Below the pieces are notes generated by a model, which searched no databases, was not told the origin of the DNA, and was given only the letters and a program-made list of their open reading frames with translations. A stretch of DNA of 64,000 bases from Flavobacterium xanthum (lineage in GTDB: Bacteria; Bacteroidota; Bacteroidia; Flavobacteriales; Flavobacteriaceae): contig NZ_FRBU01000021.1 of the NCBI RefSeq assembly GCF_900142695.1, positions 1 through 64,000 of the forward strand, read 5' to 3'. A program made the position numbers and the translations under genes. The stretch's first letter is position 1, and every line of letters begins with the position of its first letter. This document shows, piece by piece, positions 52,210-57,718 of this stretch.

Positions 52210-53262
52210 TTAAACATCATCATAATCTACATAAATAGATTCTGATGTTGGATGTGCTTGACAGGTAAGAATCAAACCATCGGCGATTTCTTTATCCGTC
52301 AAGATAGAGTTTTTAGACATTTCGGCAGTTCCTGAAGTAACACGCGCCAAGCAGCTGCTGCAAATTCCGCCTTGGCAAGAATACGGCGCATCAATACCTT
52401 GTTTCAAGGCTGCATCAAGAACGGTTTGTTTTTGTGACATTTCAAAAGTGGTCTCTTCATCATCTACCAAAATGGTAATTTTAGAATGTCCGCCTAATGA
52501 TTTTTTGATCTCGTTTACCTGTGTTGAAGTAGCAAACAATTCAAATTTAATGTTTGATTCCTTTACGTTCTTTTCTTTCAAAACTCCGGAAACAATATTG
52601 ATCATTTCTTCCGGTCCGCACAAGTAGAACTTATCAAAATCAAGTTCTTTGTGTTTATTATTTAAAACAAAGTTCACTGTTGATTTTTCAATTCGGCCAA
52701 ATAAAGCCTGATCTACTTTGGCTTGACTGAAAACATAATGTACAAAAAAGCGACCCACATATTGCAATTGCAAGTCGTGTAATTCTTGATGAAATATGGT
52801 TTCTTCGGGAGTTTTGTTACCGTAAACCAATACAAAAGAGCTATTCGGTTCGTTTTTCAATACGGATTTTAAGATGGACATTACCGGTGTAATTCCGCTT
52901 CCAGCAGCAAATGCCGCATAGTTTTTTTGGCGTTCAGCCTGAGGTTCAAAAGTAAATTTACCTTCTGGAGTTCCTATTTCTAATGCATCACCTACTTTAA
53001 GTTTGGTATTAGCAAACTGAGAAAAAGCACCGCTAGGCACCGCTTTTACTGCAATACGTAATTCTCCGCTATCGGGTGAAGAGCAAATCGAATAGGCACG
53101 GCGAATTTCTTCACCATCAAGGGTTAATCTCAAGTTTAAGTATTGACCCGCAATAAAGGTATAGTTCGCTTTTAGTTCTTGAGGGACATTAAAAAGTATG
53201 GAAACCGCATCTTTGGTTTCGCGTTTTACTTCTTTTATAATTAATTTTAAAAAGGATGACAT
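52210..53262 (-). CDS. paaE: PaaE-like ferredoxin--NADP+ reductase
   Basis: Protein of 350 aa from ATG 53262. An FAD-binding ferredoxin-reductase domain (FIAGQYLNLRLTLDGEEIRRAYSICSSP, about residues 35-62, with the RxYS FAD motif) is followed by an NAD(P)-binding part (AAFAAGSGITPVMSILKSVL, about 115-134; FYLCGPEEMI). The C-terminal 2Fe-2S plant-type ferredoxin domain has PYSCQGGICSSCLARVTSG and a last Cys in LILTCQAHP. It matches PaaE, the electron-transfer subunit of phenylacetyl-CoA epoxidase, but no paaABCD genes are nearby, so it may serve another oxygenase. Confidence 0.87.
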   Translation of the reverse strand: MSSFLKLIIKEVKRETKDAVSILFNVPQELKANYTFIAGQYLNLRLTLDGEEIRRAYSICSSPDSGELRIAVKAVPSGAFSQFANTKLKVGDALEIGTPEGKFTFEPQAERQKNYAAFAAGSGITPVMSILKSVLKNEPNSSFVLVYGNKTPEETIFHQELHDLQLQYVGRFFVHYVFSQAKVDQALFGRIEKSTVNFVLNNKHKELDFDKFYLCGPEEMINIVSGVLKEKNVKESNIKFELFATSTQVNEIKKSLGGHSKITILVDDEETTFEMSQKQTVLDAALKQGIDAPYSCQGGICSSCLARVTSGTAEMSKNSILTDKEIADGLILTCQAHPTSESIYVDYDDV

Positions 53263-53363
53263 CTGATTATTTTTTTGCAAATATACTAAAGTGTATAGGT
53301 TTCTAAAAAATTAAAAAGATTGAAATTTATATACCTAATGAAGTTATGTATAAGAATCTTATG

Positions 53364-53371
53364 TATATTTG
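53364..53371 (+). promoter_or_regulatory. -7 element for the padR operon
   Basis: TATATTTG, 45 nt before the chosen PadR ATG. A transcript starting just after it would exclude the upstream in-frame codons, which supports a start at 53404 or 53416. Confidence 0.5.
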
Positions 53372-53382
53372 TGTATCAATAT

Positions 53383-53408
53383 GAGCTTGCTTCGTGCCTC
53401 GGAATGAC
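53383..53408 (+). repeat. solo end of the GIY-YIG-associated repeat
   Basis: GAGCTTGCTTCGTGCCTC followed by GGAATGAC strongly resembles the right-end repeat that flanks the two GIY-YIG genes (TGCTTCGTTCCTCAGCATGAC core). It has no partner in opposite orientation nearby. It lies in the 5' leader of padR. Confidence 0.55.
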
Positions 53409-53415
53409 TAAAAAA

Positions 53416-53757
53416 ATGAAAAACTCGCAATTATACAAAGGAAGTCTGAATACCATCATCATGAAATTGCTAGAAGAAAACGGCAAGATGTATGGATACG
53501 AAATCACGCAAAAAGTAAAGGCCATCACGCAAGGCGAACTCAACATTACCGAGGGCGCTTTATATCCTGCGCTACACAAAATGGAAGCAGAAGGAATTCT
53601 AGACGTAGAGATGGAGAAAGTAGACAATCGCATGCGTAAATATTACAAATTGACGGAGGCTGGCACCAAGGAAACCGTAAACCGACTCTCCGAGCTCGAA
53701 GATTTCATCAGGAACATGCAAAGTTTAGTAAGCCCAAAACCCAATTTAGAATTTTAA
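53416..53757 (+). CDS. PadR family transcriptional regulator
   Basis: Winged-helix regulator of 113 aa from ATG 53416. MKNSQLYKGSLNTIIMKLLEENGKMYGYEITQKV, GELNITEGALYPALHKMEAEGIL and RKYYKLTEAGTKE are standard PadR helix-turn-helix and wing features (residues 5-75), and a C-terminal dimer helix follows. The in-frame ATG at 53404 lies inside a repeat sequence, so 53416 is preferred. It heads a run of membrane proteins and an ABC transporter that it probably represses. Confidence 0.9.
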   Translation: MKNSQLYKGSLNTIIMKLLEENGKMYGYEITQKVKAITQGELNITEGALYPALHKMEAEGILDVEMEKVDNRMRKYYKLTEAGTKETVNRLSELEDFIRNMQSLVSPKPNLEF

Positions 53758-53767
53758 TTTTTTGAAG

Positions 53768-54433
53768 ATGAAATTAACAGCGGAACAAATAGAATTTATA
53801 GATTCCATCTTATTATCAAACGGCATTATGTATGATGATGTAAAATTAGAGATGATGGATCATATGGCTTCAGAAATAGAAATTCTGATGGAGGAAAATG
53901 CACTGCCTTTTGAAGAAAATTTTAAATTGGTATTGGATAAATGGAAGCCACAATTACAGCTATCTTTTTCTGGATTAATTGGATTTTCCAACCCTAAAAT
54001 CATCACTTCGAAATGCCATGATTTAATAAAAAATCAATTATTATTTGCACTTTTTGTAGCTGGTTTACTTACATGCTTGGTTTTGTTTTTGATATCATAT
54101 TCAACTTTTAATAGCATGTTCAAAAGCATTGAACAAGTTTTTAAATCTTTTATTGTTGTTGAATTTTGTTTGGTTATTTTATCCTTGGGTTTGGTTTGGA
54201 GCACCAAGCGACAAACAACGTATAGTTACTTAATGAAGAAAAAAGGTCTTGGTGTCATTTTATTTCTTTTTATGATAGGAATCGGAATGTTTCCCGCGCA
54301 ATTAAATCATCCGGATTTTAAAATTGCTTTTGTTACTATTTTTATATCTATTATTTATGTTGTAATGGGTATGTTTTATTTGCAATTTGCTCTGAAACAT
54401 TTTCAGTTTGAAAGAAAATTAAAAAATAACTAA
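53768..54433 (+). CDS. PadR-linked membrane protein, paralogue A
   Basis: Protein of 221 aa from ATG 53768. The N-terminal ~70 residues are a helical cytoplasmic domain (MKLTAEQIEFIDSILLSNGI; then VKLEMMDHMASEIEILMEE), followed by four membrane helices (about residues 90-215). The pattern 'L-x-x-E-x-x-D-H...E' resembles the permease-prefix/HAAS-like domain often encoded beside PadR regulators; that assignment is inference. It is 10 bp after padR and 2 bp before the next paralogue, so it is in the same operon. Confidence 0.65.
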   Translation: MKLTAEQIEFIDSILLSNGIMYDDVKLEMMDHMASEIEILMEENALPFEENFKLVLDKWKPQLQLSFSGLIGFSNPKIITSKCHDLIKNQLLFALFVAGLLTCLVLFLISYSTFNSMFKSIEQVFKSFIVVEFCLVILSLGLVWSTKRQTTYSYLMKKKGLGVILFLFMIGIGMFPAQLNHPDFKIAFVTIFISIIYVVMGMFYLQFALKHFQFERKLKNN

Positions 54434-54435
54434 GG

Positions 54436-55104
54436 ATGAAACTAACCAACCAACAAATACAATGCATCTCAAATCACATTGAATCCAAAGATATCAAATG
54501 GTATGAGTTGCAACTAGAACTCACCGATCACATGGTTACTAGTATGGAAGAATTTTGGGAACAGAATCCTGAGCTGTCTTTTGAGCAAGTAAAAGAAAAC
54601 ACATTTAAAAAATTCACAAAACCAGAATTAAAAGCGATTGAAAAGCAGCGTAAACAAATTCTTGTCGAAGAGTACAATAAACAACAACGAAAAATGGTTG
54701 GAACTTATTTTAAGTTTCCTAAAATTATGGGTTGTATTTTGCTTGTTATTATAAGTTTTAAAGTATCATTCTATTTCGAAAGCCCTTACAAATATATACT
54801 AGCATTGTTTTGGTCATTATATGTTTTAGCAATTCCACTGCTTTATTTCTTTCACAAAAACCGCAAGATAAATGGTAAACGTTTTCTCGCCATTGAATCT
54901 GTACATCCTTATTTAACAATAATGGGAGTGCCTCAATTAGGAATGTGCTCAATTAATCCATTTAAAGAGGAAATTAATCAATACCCAGCAGTAGTTCTAG
55001 TTTTTTGTTTGATTTGGACACTCGGGATTTTATTTGTCGCGAGTGCTACTTACCTTCAAAAGCAATCAATTAATACAATCAGAAAACAGTACCAACTTTC
55101 ATAA
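54436..55104 (+). CDS. PadR-linked membrane protein, paralogue B1
   Basis: Protein of 222 aa, the same architecture as paralogue A: helical N-terminal domain (WYELQLELTDHMVTSMEEFW near residues 21-40, then NPELSFEQVKENTFKKF) and four membrane helices. It is much closer to paralogue B2 downstream (same length, matching C-terminus KKQYQLS/RKQYQLS). Directly after its stop the sequence enters the duplicated block with a gene fragment and a GIY-YIG gene. Function unknown; probably acts with the ABC transporter or PadR. Confidence 0.65.
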   Translation: MKLTNQQIQCISNHIESKDIKWYELQLELTDHMVTSMEEFWEQNPELSFEQVKENTFKKFTKPELKAIEKQRKQILVEEYNKQQRKMVGTYFKFPKIMGCILLVIISFKVSFYFESPYKYILALFWSLYVLAIPLLYFFHKNRKINGKRFLAIESVHPYLTIMGVPQLGMCSINPFKEEINQYPAVVLVFCLIWTLGILFVASATYLQKQSINTIRKQYQLS

Positions 55105-55113
55105 AGTTACAAA

Positions 55114-55197
55114 ATGAAACTAACTAAACAACAAATCGCTCAATATGAGGAAATCTTGGTTTCAAACGGTCTTGTGTATAATGCCACAAAAACATAA
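55114..55197 (+). pseudogene. 27-codon fragment of a paralogue-A-like gene, copy 1
   Basis: ATG at 55114, reading MKLTKQQIAQYEEILVSNGL then VYNATKT and stop. The first 22 residues closely follow the start of paralogue A (MKLTxxQIxxxxxILxSNGxxY), after which homology ends. It is a 5' stub of a lost third paralogue, cut off 53 bp before the GIY-YIG element. Confidence 0.7.
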
Positions 55198-55249
55198 AGA
55201 ATGAAAATTAGGTAAGTTCTGTTACTAATAAACGACATCGCGCAAATTT

Positions 55250-55656
55250 GTCATGCTGAGGAACGAAGCATCTCCACAAAATTGGCAATTCACTTTTAAA
55301 GCGAAAAAAGATGATTGAATTTCAAGAAGGGTACCATACGTATTATGTTTACATTTTGACTAACAAAGCGAAAACGGTTTTATATACTGGCGTAACAAAT
55401 AATTTGAAAATAAGGCTGCAACAGCACAAGCAATCCTTAAGTCCTAATTCGTTTACAGCCAAATACAATGTACATTATTTGTTGTATTTCCATAAGTTCA
55501 CTTGGATTCAAATAGCAATTGCAAGAGAGAAAGAAATAAAAGGATGGAAAAAAGACAAGAAAATCACACTAATAAAAACAATTAATCCGGAGTTGAATTT
55601 TTTGAACCACTTGTTTGAGTAGCAATGAGCAGAGATGCTTCATTCCTCAGCATGAC
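55250..55656 (+). mobile_element. GIY-YIG gene enclosed by 25-bp inverted repeats, copy 1
   Basis: Left end 55250-55274 (GTCATGCTGAGGAACGAAGC...) and right end 55632-55656 (...TTCCTCAGCATGAC) are inverted repeats matching at 24 of 25 positions. They enclose only one gene, encoding a GIY-YIG nuclease. The 407-bp unit looks like a minimal mobile element. I see no target-site duplication. Mobility is inferred from the ends, the second copy and a related solo end at 53383. Confidence 0.6.
55311..55622 (+). CDS. GIY-YIG nuclease family protein, copy 1
   Basis: Protein of 103 aa. The GIY-YIG core is YYVYILTNKAKTVLYTGVTNNLKIRLQQHK (about residues 11-40), where Y-V-Y and Y-T-G are the two halves of the motif and Arg/His follow, then a FTAKYNVHYLLYFHKF strand and the catalytic-type Glu in AIAREKEIKGWKKDKK (about 71-86). 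It belongs to the small UvrC-N-terminal-like (UPF0213) group. Such genes are common as single-domain nucleases in Bacteroidota. Here it lies between inverted repeats and is duplicated. Confidence 0.92.
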   Translation: MIEFQEGYHTYYVYILTNKAKTVLYTGVTNNLKIRLQQHKQSLSPNSFTAKYNVHYLLYFHKFTWIQIAIAREKEIKGWKKDKKITLIKTINPELNFLNHLFE

Positions 55657-55724
55657 AAAAAAGAGTGAAAAAAGCAAGAAAATCGTATGCGGTAAATAAT
55701 ATTCAAAAAAAACCAAAACATAAC

Positions 55725-56393
55725 ATGAAATTAACTCAAGAACAAACACAACATATTTTTAATAAAATTACAGATTTTGGCATAAAATGGTATGAGTTGC
55801 AATTAGAATTGACGGATCACGTAGTTTCTAGTATGGAGGAGTTTTGGGCAATAAATCCTAATTTCACTTTTGATCAGGTGAAAGAAAACGCATTTAATAA
55901 ATTTAGTAGACAAGATATAAAAGCGATTGAAAAGGAGCGTACAAAAAGTTTAAGAAAAGAATTAACTAGAGAACATAGAAAAATGATTGCGAACTATTTA
56001 ACATTTCCAAAAATCATCGGTAGTATTACTTTAGTGTATTTAGCATATGCTTTTTCAGTTTATTTTGTTAGTCCTCAGAAATATTTAGCGGTATTATTTT
56101 CTTCTTTATTGATTTTGGGTTTACCATTACTTTATTATTGGTGGAAAAGTAAAGAAATTGATGGCAATCAATTTTTGACTCTTCAAACCTTGGATCCGAA
56201 CCTTTTAGTGTTTTCTTTTCCATCTTTAGGAATGAACATCACAACACAGTTAAAAGAAGAATTAGTGGAACACCAATGGCTCGTATTGCTTTTTTGTTGT
56301 TTTTGGGTATTAGGAATATTATTCATGATTACAGCAATTCACCTACAAAAAATGACTATTTCAAAAATCAAAAAACAGTACCAACTTTCATAA
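55725..56393 (+). CDS. PadR-linked membrane protein, paralogue B2
   Basis: Protein of 222 aa from ATG 55725 (a GTG further up would add 20 residues made of the repeat). It has the same length and layout as B1: WYELQLELTDHVVSSMEEFW in the N-terminal helical domain and NPNFTFDQVKENAFNKF, then four membrane helices and the same C-terminal KKQYQLS. B1 and B2 are clearly related but diverged, unlike the near-identical block between them. Function unknown. Confidence 0.65.
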   Translation: MKLTQEQTQHIFNKITDFGIKWYELQLELTDHVVSSMEEFWAINPNFTFDQVKENAFNKFSRQDIKAIEKERTKSLRKELTREHRKMIANYLTFPKIIGSITLVYLAYAFSVYFVSPQKYLAVLFSSLLILGLPLLYYWWKSKEIDGNQFLTLQTLDPNLLVFSFPSLGMNITTQLKEELVEHQWLVLLFCCFWVLGILFMITAIHLQKMTISKIKKQYQLS

Positions 56394-56402
56394 AGTTACA
56401 AA

Positions 56403-56486
56403 ATGAAACTAACTAAACAACAAATCGCTCAATATGAGGAAATCTTGGTTTCAAACGGTCTTGTGTATAACGCCACAAAAACATAA
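56403..56486 (+). pseudogene. 27-codon fragment of a paralogue-A-like gene, copy 2
   Basis: Same 27-codon frame as at 55114 (MKLTKQQIAQYEEILVSNGL then VYNATKT, stop), with one silent change (AAT to AAC). It is part of the duplicated block. Confidence 0.7.
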
Positions 56487-56538
56487 AGAATGAAAATTAG
56501 GCTAGTTCAGTTACTAATAAACTACATCGCACAAATTT

Positions 56539-56943
56539 TTCATGCGGAGGAACGAAGCATCTCCACAAAATTGGCAATTCACTTTTAGAGCGAAAAAAGA
56601 TGATTGAATTTCAAGAAGGGTACCATAAGTATTATGTTTACATTTTGACTAACAAAGCGAAAACGGTTTCATATACTGGCGTAACCAATAATTTGAAAAT
56701 AAGGCTGCAACAGCACAAGCAATCCTTAAATCCTAATTCGTTTACAGCCAAGTATAATGTACATTATTTGTTGTATTTCCATAAGTTCACTTGGATTCAA
56801 ATAGCAATTGCAAGAGAGAAAGAAATAAAAGGATGGAAAAAAGACAAGAAAATCACACTAATAAAAACAATTAATCCGAAGTTGAATTTTTTGAACCACT
56901 TGTTTGAGTAGCAATACAGAGATGCTTCGTTCCTCAGCATGAC
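56539..56943 (+). mobile_element. GIY-YIG gene enclosed by inverted repeats, copy 2
   Basis: Left end 56539-56563 (two substitutions relative to copy 1) and right end 56919-56943 (matches the inferred consensus exactly) enclose the second GIY-YIG gene. The unit is 405 bp long. The duplication carrying it extends beyond the ends, so this copy arose by segmental duplication rather than by separate insertion. Confidence 0.6.
56600..56911 (+). CDS. GIY-YIG nuclease family protein, copy 2
   Basis: Protein of 103 aa that differs from copy 1 at only four positions (T to K in GYHKYYV, L to S in TVSYTG, S to N in LNPNSF, E to K in INPKLNF). The L-to-S change falls within the GIY-YIG core, just before YTG. 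The catalytic-type Arg and Glu are retained. Both open frames being intact after duplication suggests the event is recent or that function is maintained. Confidence 0.92.
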   Translation: MIEFQEGYHKYYVYILTNKAKTVSYTGVTNNLKIRLQQHKQSLNPNSFTAKYNVHYLLYFHKFTWIQIAIAREKEIKGWKKDKKITLIKTINPKLNFLNHLFE

Positions 56944-57010
56944 AAAAAAGAGCGAATAAAGCAAGAAAATCGTAAGTGACAAATAACTTTCAAGAATAGC
57001 AAAATAGAAT

Positions 57011-57718
57011 ATGAAATTAACTTCTCAACAAATTGACCACCTATTCACTTTCACTCGCCAGCATTATGTAGAGTGGTACGACTTACAATCAGAATTGGTA
57101 GATCACATAGCAAACGCTATCGAAACCCAATGGCAAGAAAACCCAAATCGCTCGTTTGATGAAGCGCTGCAACTTGAATTCAAAAAGTTTGGTGTTTTTG
57201 GGTTTATGGATGTGGTCGAAAAACGACAAGCCGTTTTGGGTAAAAAATACAATGGTTTGGTTTGGCAACATTTCAAAGATTTCTTTGGCATCCCAAAAAT
57301 TATATTGACAATCGCCATGACGCTAGTTTTATACAGTATTTTAAAAATAAGTGCTTATAGCGCATGGATTTTTGTAGGTCTCTCTCTTATTGTAGTAGGA
57401 TTTACTTTTTACGAACTTTTCAAAAACAATAAAAACAATAAAAGAAAAAAGCAAACCCAAGAAAAAAGATGGCTTTTTGAAGAAATAATAAATCAATACG
57501 GCAGCTTTTCAGGAGCTATTATTTTTCCGTTTAATGTATTCGTTTCAGTGTTTAATCATTCCGAAAAGTATTTAGGCAATTACTATTGGATGATGGGATT
57601 GAGTTTCTTTTTAGTAGTGGTCATCTTACTGCTTTTTATCATTTTTAAAATCATTCCAGCCAAAGCAGAAGAGTATCTACAAACAACTTATCCAGAATAT
57701 AAATTAGAAAACGTGTAA
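57011..57718 (+). CDS. PadR-linked membrane protein, paralogue C
   Basis: Protein of 235 aa in the same series: MKLTSQQIDHLFTFTRQHYV, then WYDLQSELVDHIANAIETQW and NPNRSFDEALQLEFKKFGVFGFMDVVEK (about residues 21-70), followed by four membrane helices. The 'SF-EA...F-KFG' segment is the clearest resemblance to permease-prefix/HAAS-type domains, whose helices end in a similar FG turn. It is the last paralogue before the transporter genes, 47 bp upstream of the DUF5687 gene. Confidence 0.68.
   Translation: MKLTSQQIDHLFTFTRQHYVEWYDLQSELVDHIANAIETQWQENPNRSFDEALQLEFKKFGVFGFMDVVEKRQAVLGKKYNGLVWQHFKDFFGIPKIILTIAMTLVLYSILKISAYSAWIFVGLSLIVVGFTFYELFKNNKNNKRKKQTQEKRWLFEEIINQYGSFSGAIIFPFNVFVSVFNHSEKYLGNYYWMMGLSFFLVVVILLLFIIFKIIPAKAEEYLQTTYPEYKLENV

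Follow-up and report, generated by a model that had tools for sequence, protein, structure and literature searches.

Two small genes for single-domain GIY-YIG nucleases, each enclosed by 25-bp inverted repeats, lie close together in the Flavobacterium xanthum DNA analyzed here (contig NZ_FRBU01000021.1, positions 1 to 64,000; the whole of these 64,000 nucleotides is referred to as the window), and they raise the question of whether such a nuclease spreads the repeats at its borders. A sequence-only reading had taken them for a Bacteroidota counterpart, with a different nuclease fold, of the system formed by REP-associated tyrosine transposases (RAYTs), repetitive extragenic palindromes (REPs) and REP doublets forming hairpins (REPINs). 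A survey of 2013 defines CGTC-tagged REPs, notes TGTC variants, counts the dRS3 repeats of Neisseria and RPE-4/RPE-6 of Rickettsia among them, and describes them, in the sections cited here, as repeats that “apparently lack a dedicated transposase” (Di Nocera, De Gregorio, Rocco 2013; PMC3733652). Because matching palindromes of this known but partnerless class border GIY-YIG genes in this bacterium and in several phyla, the small GIY-YIG nuclease stands out as a strong candidate enzyme for spreading tagged palindromes.

The two open reading frames, 103 amino acids each, are located at 55311-55622 and 56600-56911 on the plus strand, and both match the Pfam family PF01541 (GIY-YIG; E 3e-14 for copy 1 and 1e-13 for copy 2), which confirms them as GIY-YIG genes. 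The 25-bp inverted ends are also present as claimed and have the form of REP-like hairpins. Those of unit 1, at 55250-55274 on the plus strand (GTCATGCTGAGGAACGAAGCATCTC; class ‘TC’, with the GTCA tag pointing outward) and at 55632-55656 on the minus strand, differ at 1 position. In unit 2 the left arm at 56539-56563 on the plus strand is degenerate (TTCATGCGG; TTCATGCGGAGG...) compared with the right arm, at 56919-56943 on the minus strand.

Hairpins of four classes accompany GIY-YIG genes far more often than they accompany other loci. At least one of these classes occurs within 400 bp of the gene in 99 of 112 GIY-YIG rows (111 distinct genes), as against 0/30 RAYT loci, 8/34 distal windows and 5/112 block-shuffled flanks, which bears out the proposed association of the ends with GIY-YIG genes. 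When tagged hairpins were scored on each side separately, 62 of 107 GIY-YIG loci had them on both flanks and 11 on neither, while among 88 windows placed 450-800 bp away the corresponding numbers were 1 and 56. The arms flanking a GIY-YIG gene also match one another better than do cross-locus and distal controls. Terminators or chance as the explanation are ruled out by the distal, shuffled and RAYT controls.

The RAYT loci represent 30 of 101 matches, which were found in 26 of the 30 repeat-rich congener genomes searched. Inverted arms with a score of at least 15 are present at 16 of the 30, with sequences unrelated to the GIY-YIG repeats; the RAYT loci carry other palindromes or none. On these 30 loci RAYT is ruled out as the mover of the tagged repeats, and its dissociation from them speaks for the coexistence of two repeat systems, each with its own enzyme. 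The Y1 transposase genes at these loci (L293-L322) often have their own flanking palindromes, such as GTTCC..GGAAC, GCTTCGGAGAAGC, GGCTTTAGCC and others. Similar to RAYT and REPIN, the GIY-YIG system combines a cognate nuclease gene bordered by repeats of its own class with inverted pairs that lack the gene and with a repeat-specific pairing. However, RAYT (TnpA-REP) is an HUH Y1 tyrosine transposase (PF01797) and its repeats are GTAG-tagged, whereas the nuclease here is the unrelated GIY-YIG (PF01541) and the tag is GTCA.

The repeat class follows the GIY-YIG group rather than the genome. A tree of 102 proteins, based on few columns and with many unresolved forks, contained the supported branches K1, K2 and K3; K4, to which copy 1 of the window belongs, is the rest of a 75-row branch after removal of K2 and K3 and is not a clade. 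Eight loci absent from the tree (L016, L034, L037, L039, L049, L051, L054 and L070) were grouped by identity. The matching test used 101 of the 112 rows, leaving out nine rows of other groups, the ungrouped L098, and L002, the best match of which is the L001 gene. Six of the 101 loci have no classified repeat, and 92 of the other 95 carry the cognate class; the maximum in 20000 permutations was 49. Within the 16 genomes that contain two or more GIY-YIG groups, all 42 of 42 classified loci are cognate, a result obtained in 0/5000 within-genome permutations. Since the classes had been defined on the tested loci, we examined 60 held-out loci from outside the first 150 genomes, which were picked from the match table blind to their repeats and assigned to the group of the nearest protein; some of their genomes had previously been examined at other loci. 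Fifty-five belong to the four groups and 52 of these have a classified repeat, which is cognate in 51 of the 52 (permutation maximum 28). The remainder consists of one mismatch (L399), three loci without a classified repeat and five of other groups. The association, the matching of group to class, its held-out repetition and the RAYT control lend good support to the proposed counterpart of RAYT and REPIN with another nuclease fold, and recognition by each GIY-YIG group of its own repeat class is strongly implied.

Many of the ends fit the pattern GTCAT-NYY-GA-S-NNN-S-GA-RRN-ATC, and the family consists of hairpins with a TGTCA foot and compensatory changes in the stem. In 50 unique 23-mers from genus loci, selected with the variable positions free of any pairing demand, Watson-Crick pairing was found at the three variable stem pairs in 49, 47 and 47 sequences (expected 25.6, 28.9 and 25.7), and 43 have it at the loop-closing pair, where 20.6 were expected, while six shifted controls lie near or under expectation. 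The genus also contains the classes GTCATTCCGTAGGAATC, which has a GNA-type loop, and GTCATTGCGAG..CGAAGCAATC, as well as forms with the tail ATCAC rather than ATCTC. A further tagged class, GTCAGGCTGAGCGAAGTCGAAGC, occurs in large-genome species (L233, L234, L238, L268, L281) outside the GIY-YIG group assignments. Elsewhere in the genome of the window, four direct hairpins of the GTCATTCTGAGGAACGAAGAATC type stand in tandem with a 141-bp period (G000:C48:15786-16231; L006, L007, L011, L012), two of them with one mismatch each.

The survey of 2013 describes, in its cited sections, an unpaired tag (CGTC, TGTC or CCTC) on one side of the palindrome, A-T pairs at the first and second stem positions, a stem of 8-9 bp and a tail that is mostly CCA (PMC3733652). 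The repeats studied here carry such an unpaired tag, TGTC/GTCA in the genus and CGTC in Alphaproteobacteria. Most genus repeats also have the A-T pairs (GTCAT...ATC), with exceptions such as GTCAC...GTC, the three repeat patterns that were searched presupposing an A-T stem base. The two sets are thus alike in being short palindromes with a tag at one end and an A-T stem base, dispersed and often in inverted pairs. Furthermore, Azospirillum lipoferum, Sinorhizobium meliloti and Novosphingobium aromaticivorans, which the survey names, and Neisseria have GIY-YIG genes with such arms. The two sets differ in that the survey finds no transposase associated with the published repeats, whereas those here have a putative cognate partner in GIY-YIG. 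The genus forms also have a shorter stem, of about 5 bp, followed by GA/GA and a small loop, and tails such as CTC, CAC or CTT rather than an 8-9 bp stem with a CCA tail, while the repeats of Azospirillum and Sinorhizobium have longer stems and CCA tails. Because of these differences in stem length and tail, the genus forms are regarded as relatives and not as members of the four published families.

To count repeats and genes, 150 genomes of the genus were sampled, including that of the window. The general repeat pattern has 3153 exact matches, with up to 202 per genome and at least one in 104 of the 150 genomes; the reversed pattern has 0 matches in every genome. The absence of reversed matches, together with the flank arms that match above controls, indicates that the inverted ends are not due to chance. 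Relatives of the GIY-YIG protein (E up to 1e-5) are encoded in 115 of the genomes, in 1-12 copies each, some with stops. These 115 genomes hold 3076 repeat matches and the 35 without a relative hold 77, counts that take in the matches beside the GIY-YIG gene itself; three or more matches were found in 74/115 and 9/35, respectively. At most one match to the pattern is found in seven genomes that have a close relative of GIY-YIG (G012, G032, G061, G068, G098, G130 and G134), and these contain repeat classes of their own that fall outside it. The repeat with the GNA loop is present in 12/12 genomes with its GIY-YIG group and in 27/138 others, again counting repeats next to the gene, with a single match overall for the reversed control; in G012, G013, G032, G066, G115 and G139 it is also found away from the gene.

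The pattern is not restricted to Bacteroidota, as the sequence-only reading had supposed. When one genome per species was scanned with the alignment A1, at least 557 relatives were obtained, of which 80 loci were kept; three of these (L126, L132, L190) belong to the genus of the window, leaving 77. The titles of the kept loci include Bacteroidota, Alpha-, Beta- and Gammaproteobacteria, Chloroflexi, Leptospiraceae, Syntrophales, Cloacimonadota, Fibrobacter, Verrucomicrobia, Patescibacteria, Clostridiales, Gastranaerophilales, Acidobacteria and others. Matching arms (score of at least 15) flank the gene at 40 of the 77 loci, compared with 23/600 cross pairs and 0/66 distal pairs. Thirty of the 40 have the tag GTCA or GTCG in both arms, and these represent seven taxa of class to phylum rank: Bacteroidota (15), Alphaproteobacteria (9), Chloroflexi (2), and Syntrophales, Verrucomicrobia, Fibrobacter and Acidobacteria (1 each). 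Tagged hairpins are present on both flanks at 25/77 loci and 0/66 distal positions, and on at least one flank at 52/77 and 7/66.

Eight replicons of the plasmid collection were compared. Matching CGTC arms were identified at the gene in A. lipoferum, S. meliloti, N. aromaticivorans and Sphingobium. The gene in N. gonorrhoeae is 54% identical to the query and has dRS3-like arms, but proximity alone proves little there because dRS3-like repeats are so dense. Planktothrix has TGTC repeats near the gene with an arm score of 14, and no matching arms were found at the gene in R. tumorigenes and Photobacterium. On plasmid p1 of Planktothrix agardhii (L329), the GIY-YIG gene is located between an MmeI-type restriction gene and the DISARM gene drmA. 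Two N. gonorrhoeae records filed as plasmids, NZ_CP119142.1 and NZ_CP119140.1, measure about 2.17 Mb and look like chromosomes. A contig titled Candidatus Nitrotoga (L118/L126) appears to be identical to G126:C14 from the genus of the window, with which it shares the same protein, so its title may be wrong.

Gene-bearing and gene-less elements are present at some orthologous sites and absent from others. In the large-genome species, the ends of gene-bearing units share 46-54 bp on both sides with dispersed pairs of about 102 bp, as judged by eye. At one orthologous site compared across 12 genomes, with two longer regions left out of the interpretation, G006, G088, G083 and G187 have a gene-less pair, which G136, G305, G217 and G103 lack. 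Upstream of a conserved gene used as an anchor, the gene-bearing unit lies within about 720 bp in 12 of 30 loci and farther away in one; the gene is absent near the anchor in 17, two of which have less than 210 bp of upstream DNA. In G042 (L266) and G250 (L274), a different palindromic element, CCTGCAAGGTTT..AAACCTTGCAGG, stands where relatives have a REPIN-like pair.

Sites that lack the element were found in Azospirillum and Sphingobium. In A. lipoferum, a hairpin pair, the GIY-YIG gene and a second hairpin pair lie between sufB and sufC, while the element is missing and sufB adjoins sufC in A. ramasamyi, A. oryzae, Azospirillum sp. B510 and A. thermophilum, with 90-97% identity in the shared parts. 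The alignment shows no CGTC-tagged repeat at this position in any of the four, B510 having another palindrome-like stretch, and the site reads as a gain of the element. In Sphingobium, the gene is located between fnrL and a response regulator on seven plasmids. Of three aligned plasmids that lack it, TomTYG64 and TomTYG74 have one palindrome and TomTYG72 has other sequence, so this could be a gain or a loss. The single palindrome in TomTYG74 (L331) and TomTYG64 (L333) is nearly symmetric and has a CGTC tag at either end, as if two arms had been merged by deletion or as if it were a former target.

The protein itself resembles known nucleases of similar size. The AlphaFold2 model of copy 1 has a mean pLDDT (predicted local distance difference test) of 91.3, and the closest solved folds found with Foldseek are UPF0213 protein BH0048 (1zg2; E 8e-8 in a profile comparison), followed by Slx1, a branched-DNA nuclease. 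PF01541 covers residues 10/11-84 of the 103, and neither another Pfam family at E 0.001 nor a separate DNA-binding domain was found in the window proteins. Invariant positions in 21 sequences include Y14, Y25, G27, R35, H39, E73 and N92, among which are presumably the catalytic residues. The Slx1-like/UPF0213/COG2827 nucleases are alike in size and in their closest solved structure, 1zg2. However, an analysis of GIY-YIG proteins from 2006 describes the Slx1 family, in the parts cited here, as largely vertically inherited with few exceptions and as lacking a C-terminal Asn (PMC1564403), whereas the distribution here is patchy and N92, an Asn near the C-terminus that may be the equivalent residue, is invariant.

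The two units of the window are a special case. The segments 55077-55706 and 56366-56993, both on the plus strand, are 95.4% identical over 630 aligned columns, and this block extends past the left ends by 173 bp and past the right ends by 50 bp, while the bodies of the paralogous genes directly upstream of it are 48-77% identical in 60-column windows. The two genes within it differ at 7 of 312 nucleotides and 4 amino acids. The locus is occupied in several relatives: G292, G117, G070 and G129 have the gene, G257 has a repeat pair at unit-like spacing and G363 has two units, while no unit was found there in G200, the best DNA match for one flank (86%) among 398 congeners. Because the block overruns the ends and relatives carry the gene at this place, local duplication is the better account, and the two units very probably represent one resident unit that was copied through the paralogous array by a 630-bp segmental duplication and not two independent insertions. 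Gene conversion between two older copies would give the same picture. The pair consequently provides no evidence of transposition.

The array into which the units are set spans 53762-57718 on the plus strand and consists of four paralogous genes of about 220-240 amino acids (53762-54433, 54436-55104, 55665-56393 and 57011-57718), none of which matches a Pfam family at E 0.001. The locus is headed by a PadR-family regulator gene, which lies outside the element (53320-53757, plus strand; PF03551, E 7e-21), and the copy number of the paralogs beside it differs among relatives. The solo end at 53383-53408 had been taken for a diverged copy of the same end. A repeat is indeed present there, on the minus strand, but its sequence, GTCATTCCGAGGCACGAAGCAAGC, is two positions away from GTCATTGCGAGGCACGAAGCAATC, another repeat found in the analysis, and we read it as a decayed member of another class, the GTCATTGCGAG..CGAAGCAATC type. 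An Rfam scan of 53000-57600 gave two matches only, both at chance level (E 0.14 and 0.48).

These data suggest a REP-type repeat system in which a single-domain GIY-YIG nuclease is the dedicated protein that recognizes, cuts and copies its own class, and we consider this the probable interpretation. Each GIY-YIG group would recognize its own class of TGTC/CGTC-tagged hairpins, most likely as a hairpin or a cruciform extruded while the DNA is single-stranded, and would nick or cut close to the foot of the hairpin, whereupon repair or replication would copy the intervening DNA to another place. A hairpin, the GIY-YIG gene and an inverted hairpin would form the autonomous unit, and the gene-less inverted pair, which shares these ends and in large-genome species is REPIN-like and about 102 bp long, may be a non-autonomous derivative moved in trans, while the second copy in the window would have arisen by local duplication and not by such a move. 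Binding, cutting and copying by the protein are thereby proposed on the basis of sequence comparisons, with mobilization of the repeats by GIY-YIG as their best explanation. In our reading, the family is probably the missing cognate enzyme of such repeats, analogous to RAYT and REPIN but with an unrelated nuclease. That standalone GIY-YIG proteins are the long-missing mobilizers of the whole CGTC/TGTC REP superfamily, including dRS3 of Neisseria and RPE of Rickettsia, with each group reading the loop and tail of its own hairpin, and form a second, non-HUH class of enzymes behind REP-like repeats throughout bacteria, is a broader proposal to which we would give about an even chance.

Several observations weigh against mobilization by the nuclease. 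Besides the local origin of the two window copies, clean empty sites were not obtained at two places in the genus, where presence and absence could be seen but exact junctions could not, because the DNA between genes diverges too quickly; aligning filled with unfilled sites likewise gave inexact junctions and no evident target-site duplication. The orientation of the repeats is mixed and the pairs are not REPIN-like throughout, with tags outward in 115, inward in 80 and on one strand in 66 of 261 close pairs, and both nearest repeats have their tags outward from the gene in only 45 of 112 rows. Clear matching arms are lacking at 37 of the 77 distant loci. Repeat counts correlate more strongly with genome size, a strong confounder (Spearman 0.70), than with GIY-YIG copy number (0.45), and the latter rank correlation falls to 0.28 (p 6e-4) once genome size is accounted for. 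Seven genomes without a detected GIY-YIG relative have 5-24 repeat matches, so that loss or another mover must be assumed for them, and in at least one genome, G056, all four GNA-loop matches are beside the gene itself. The computed DNA folding energies of eight repeat strings are mostly unremarkable (z +0.16 to -2.54), for which reason the case for a structure rests on covariation. The gene may also ride on the repeats instead of driving them.

This last thought leads to the main rival, in which the nuclease is a homing parasite that cuts existing repeats, its gene is copied in by recombination between flanking repeats, and the repeats owe their spread to another factor. Homing endonucleases are known to contain GIY-YIG domains, as reported in the cited parts of PMC1564403, and those of the I-TevI type share with the proteins studied here the catalytic domain and a selfish-looking distribution. 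Unlike the I-TevI type, the protein here is a single domain with hairpin repeats at its flanks, and no intron or intein was seen. Compatible with homing are also the position of the gene within a REPIN-like pair that has the same ends, seen by eye, and the two Sphingobium plasmids that hold a single palindrome at the site in place of the gene. A match between class and group in trans is expected under mobilization and homing alike. However, the one other candidate mover tested, RAYT, has the tagged class at none of the 30 loci and unrelated palindromes where it has any, and the four Azospirillum relatives have no CGTC-tagged repeat at the site, B510 with its other palindrome-like stretch included. 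We find homing of the gene into repeats rather unlikely.

Two further explanations fit the data less well than mobilization by the nuclease. The protein could be a nuclease domesticated by the host, either a repair enzyme or a structure-specific one, that resolves cruciforms formed by the repeats, with the repeats beside the gene serving as terminators or regulatory sites. Its fold is similar to that of Slx1, and the cited part of a study in Caulobacter notes three COG2827 genes, one of them with an SOS box (PMC1839093), but a selfish element would better explain the copy number of 0-12 per genome with some copies broken, the variable occupancy of orthologous sites and the single repeat class of each group, which makes host use improbable. 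Small genes in repeat-rich intergenic regions could also pick up flanking repeats by chance, as repeats are abundant in some genomes and dense around the gene of N. gonorrhoeae. Such passive hitch-hiking is opposed by the distal and RAYT controls and by the match of class and group within genomes, and is contradicted by the held-out loci, so that we give it hardly any credence.

A link between GIY-YIG genes and REP or CGTC repeats was not found in title, abstract or terms among the matches listed in the openly licensed PMC literature, and a REP survey of 2025 cites the CGTC paper, its text yielding no match to the words RAYT, nuclease or transposase (PMC12306157). The survey of 2013, in the sections cited, did not settle by what means one of the two large REP superfamilies moves, no transposase being associated with it. 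With a candidate cognate enzyme for the CGTC/TGTC REPs, the question of their movement becomes directly testable, and the correspondence of one hairpin class to each nuclease group offers a natural specificity series for biochemistry. If the proposed role is true, it would suggest a function for the small genes annotated as “GIY-YIG nuclease family protein”, which have so far been discussed as DNA repair enzymes, it would add GIY-YIG chemistry to the ways in which bacterial repeats spread, and it would link the repeats of Neisseria, rhizobia and Rickettsia to one mechanism.

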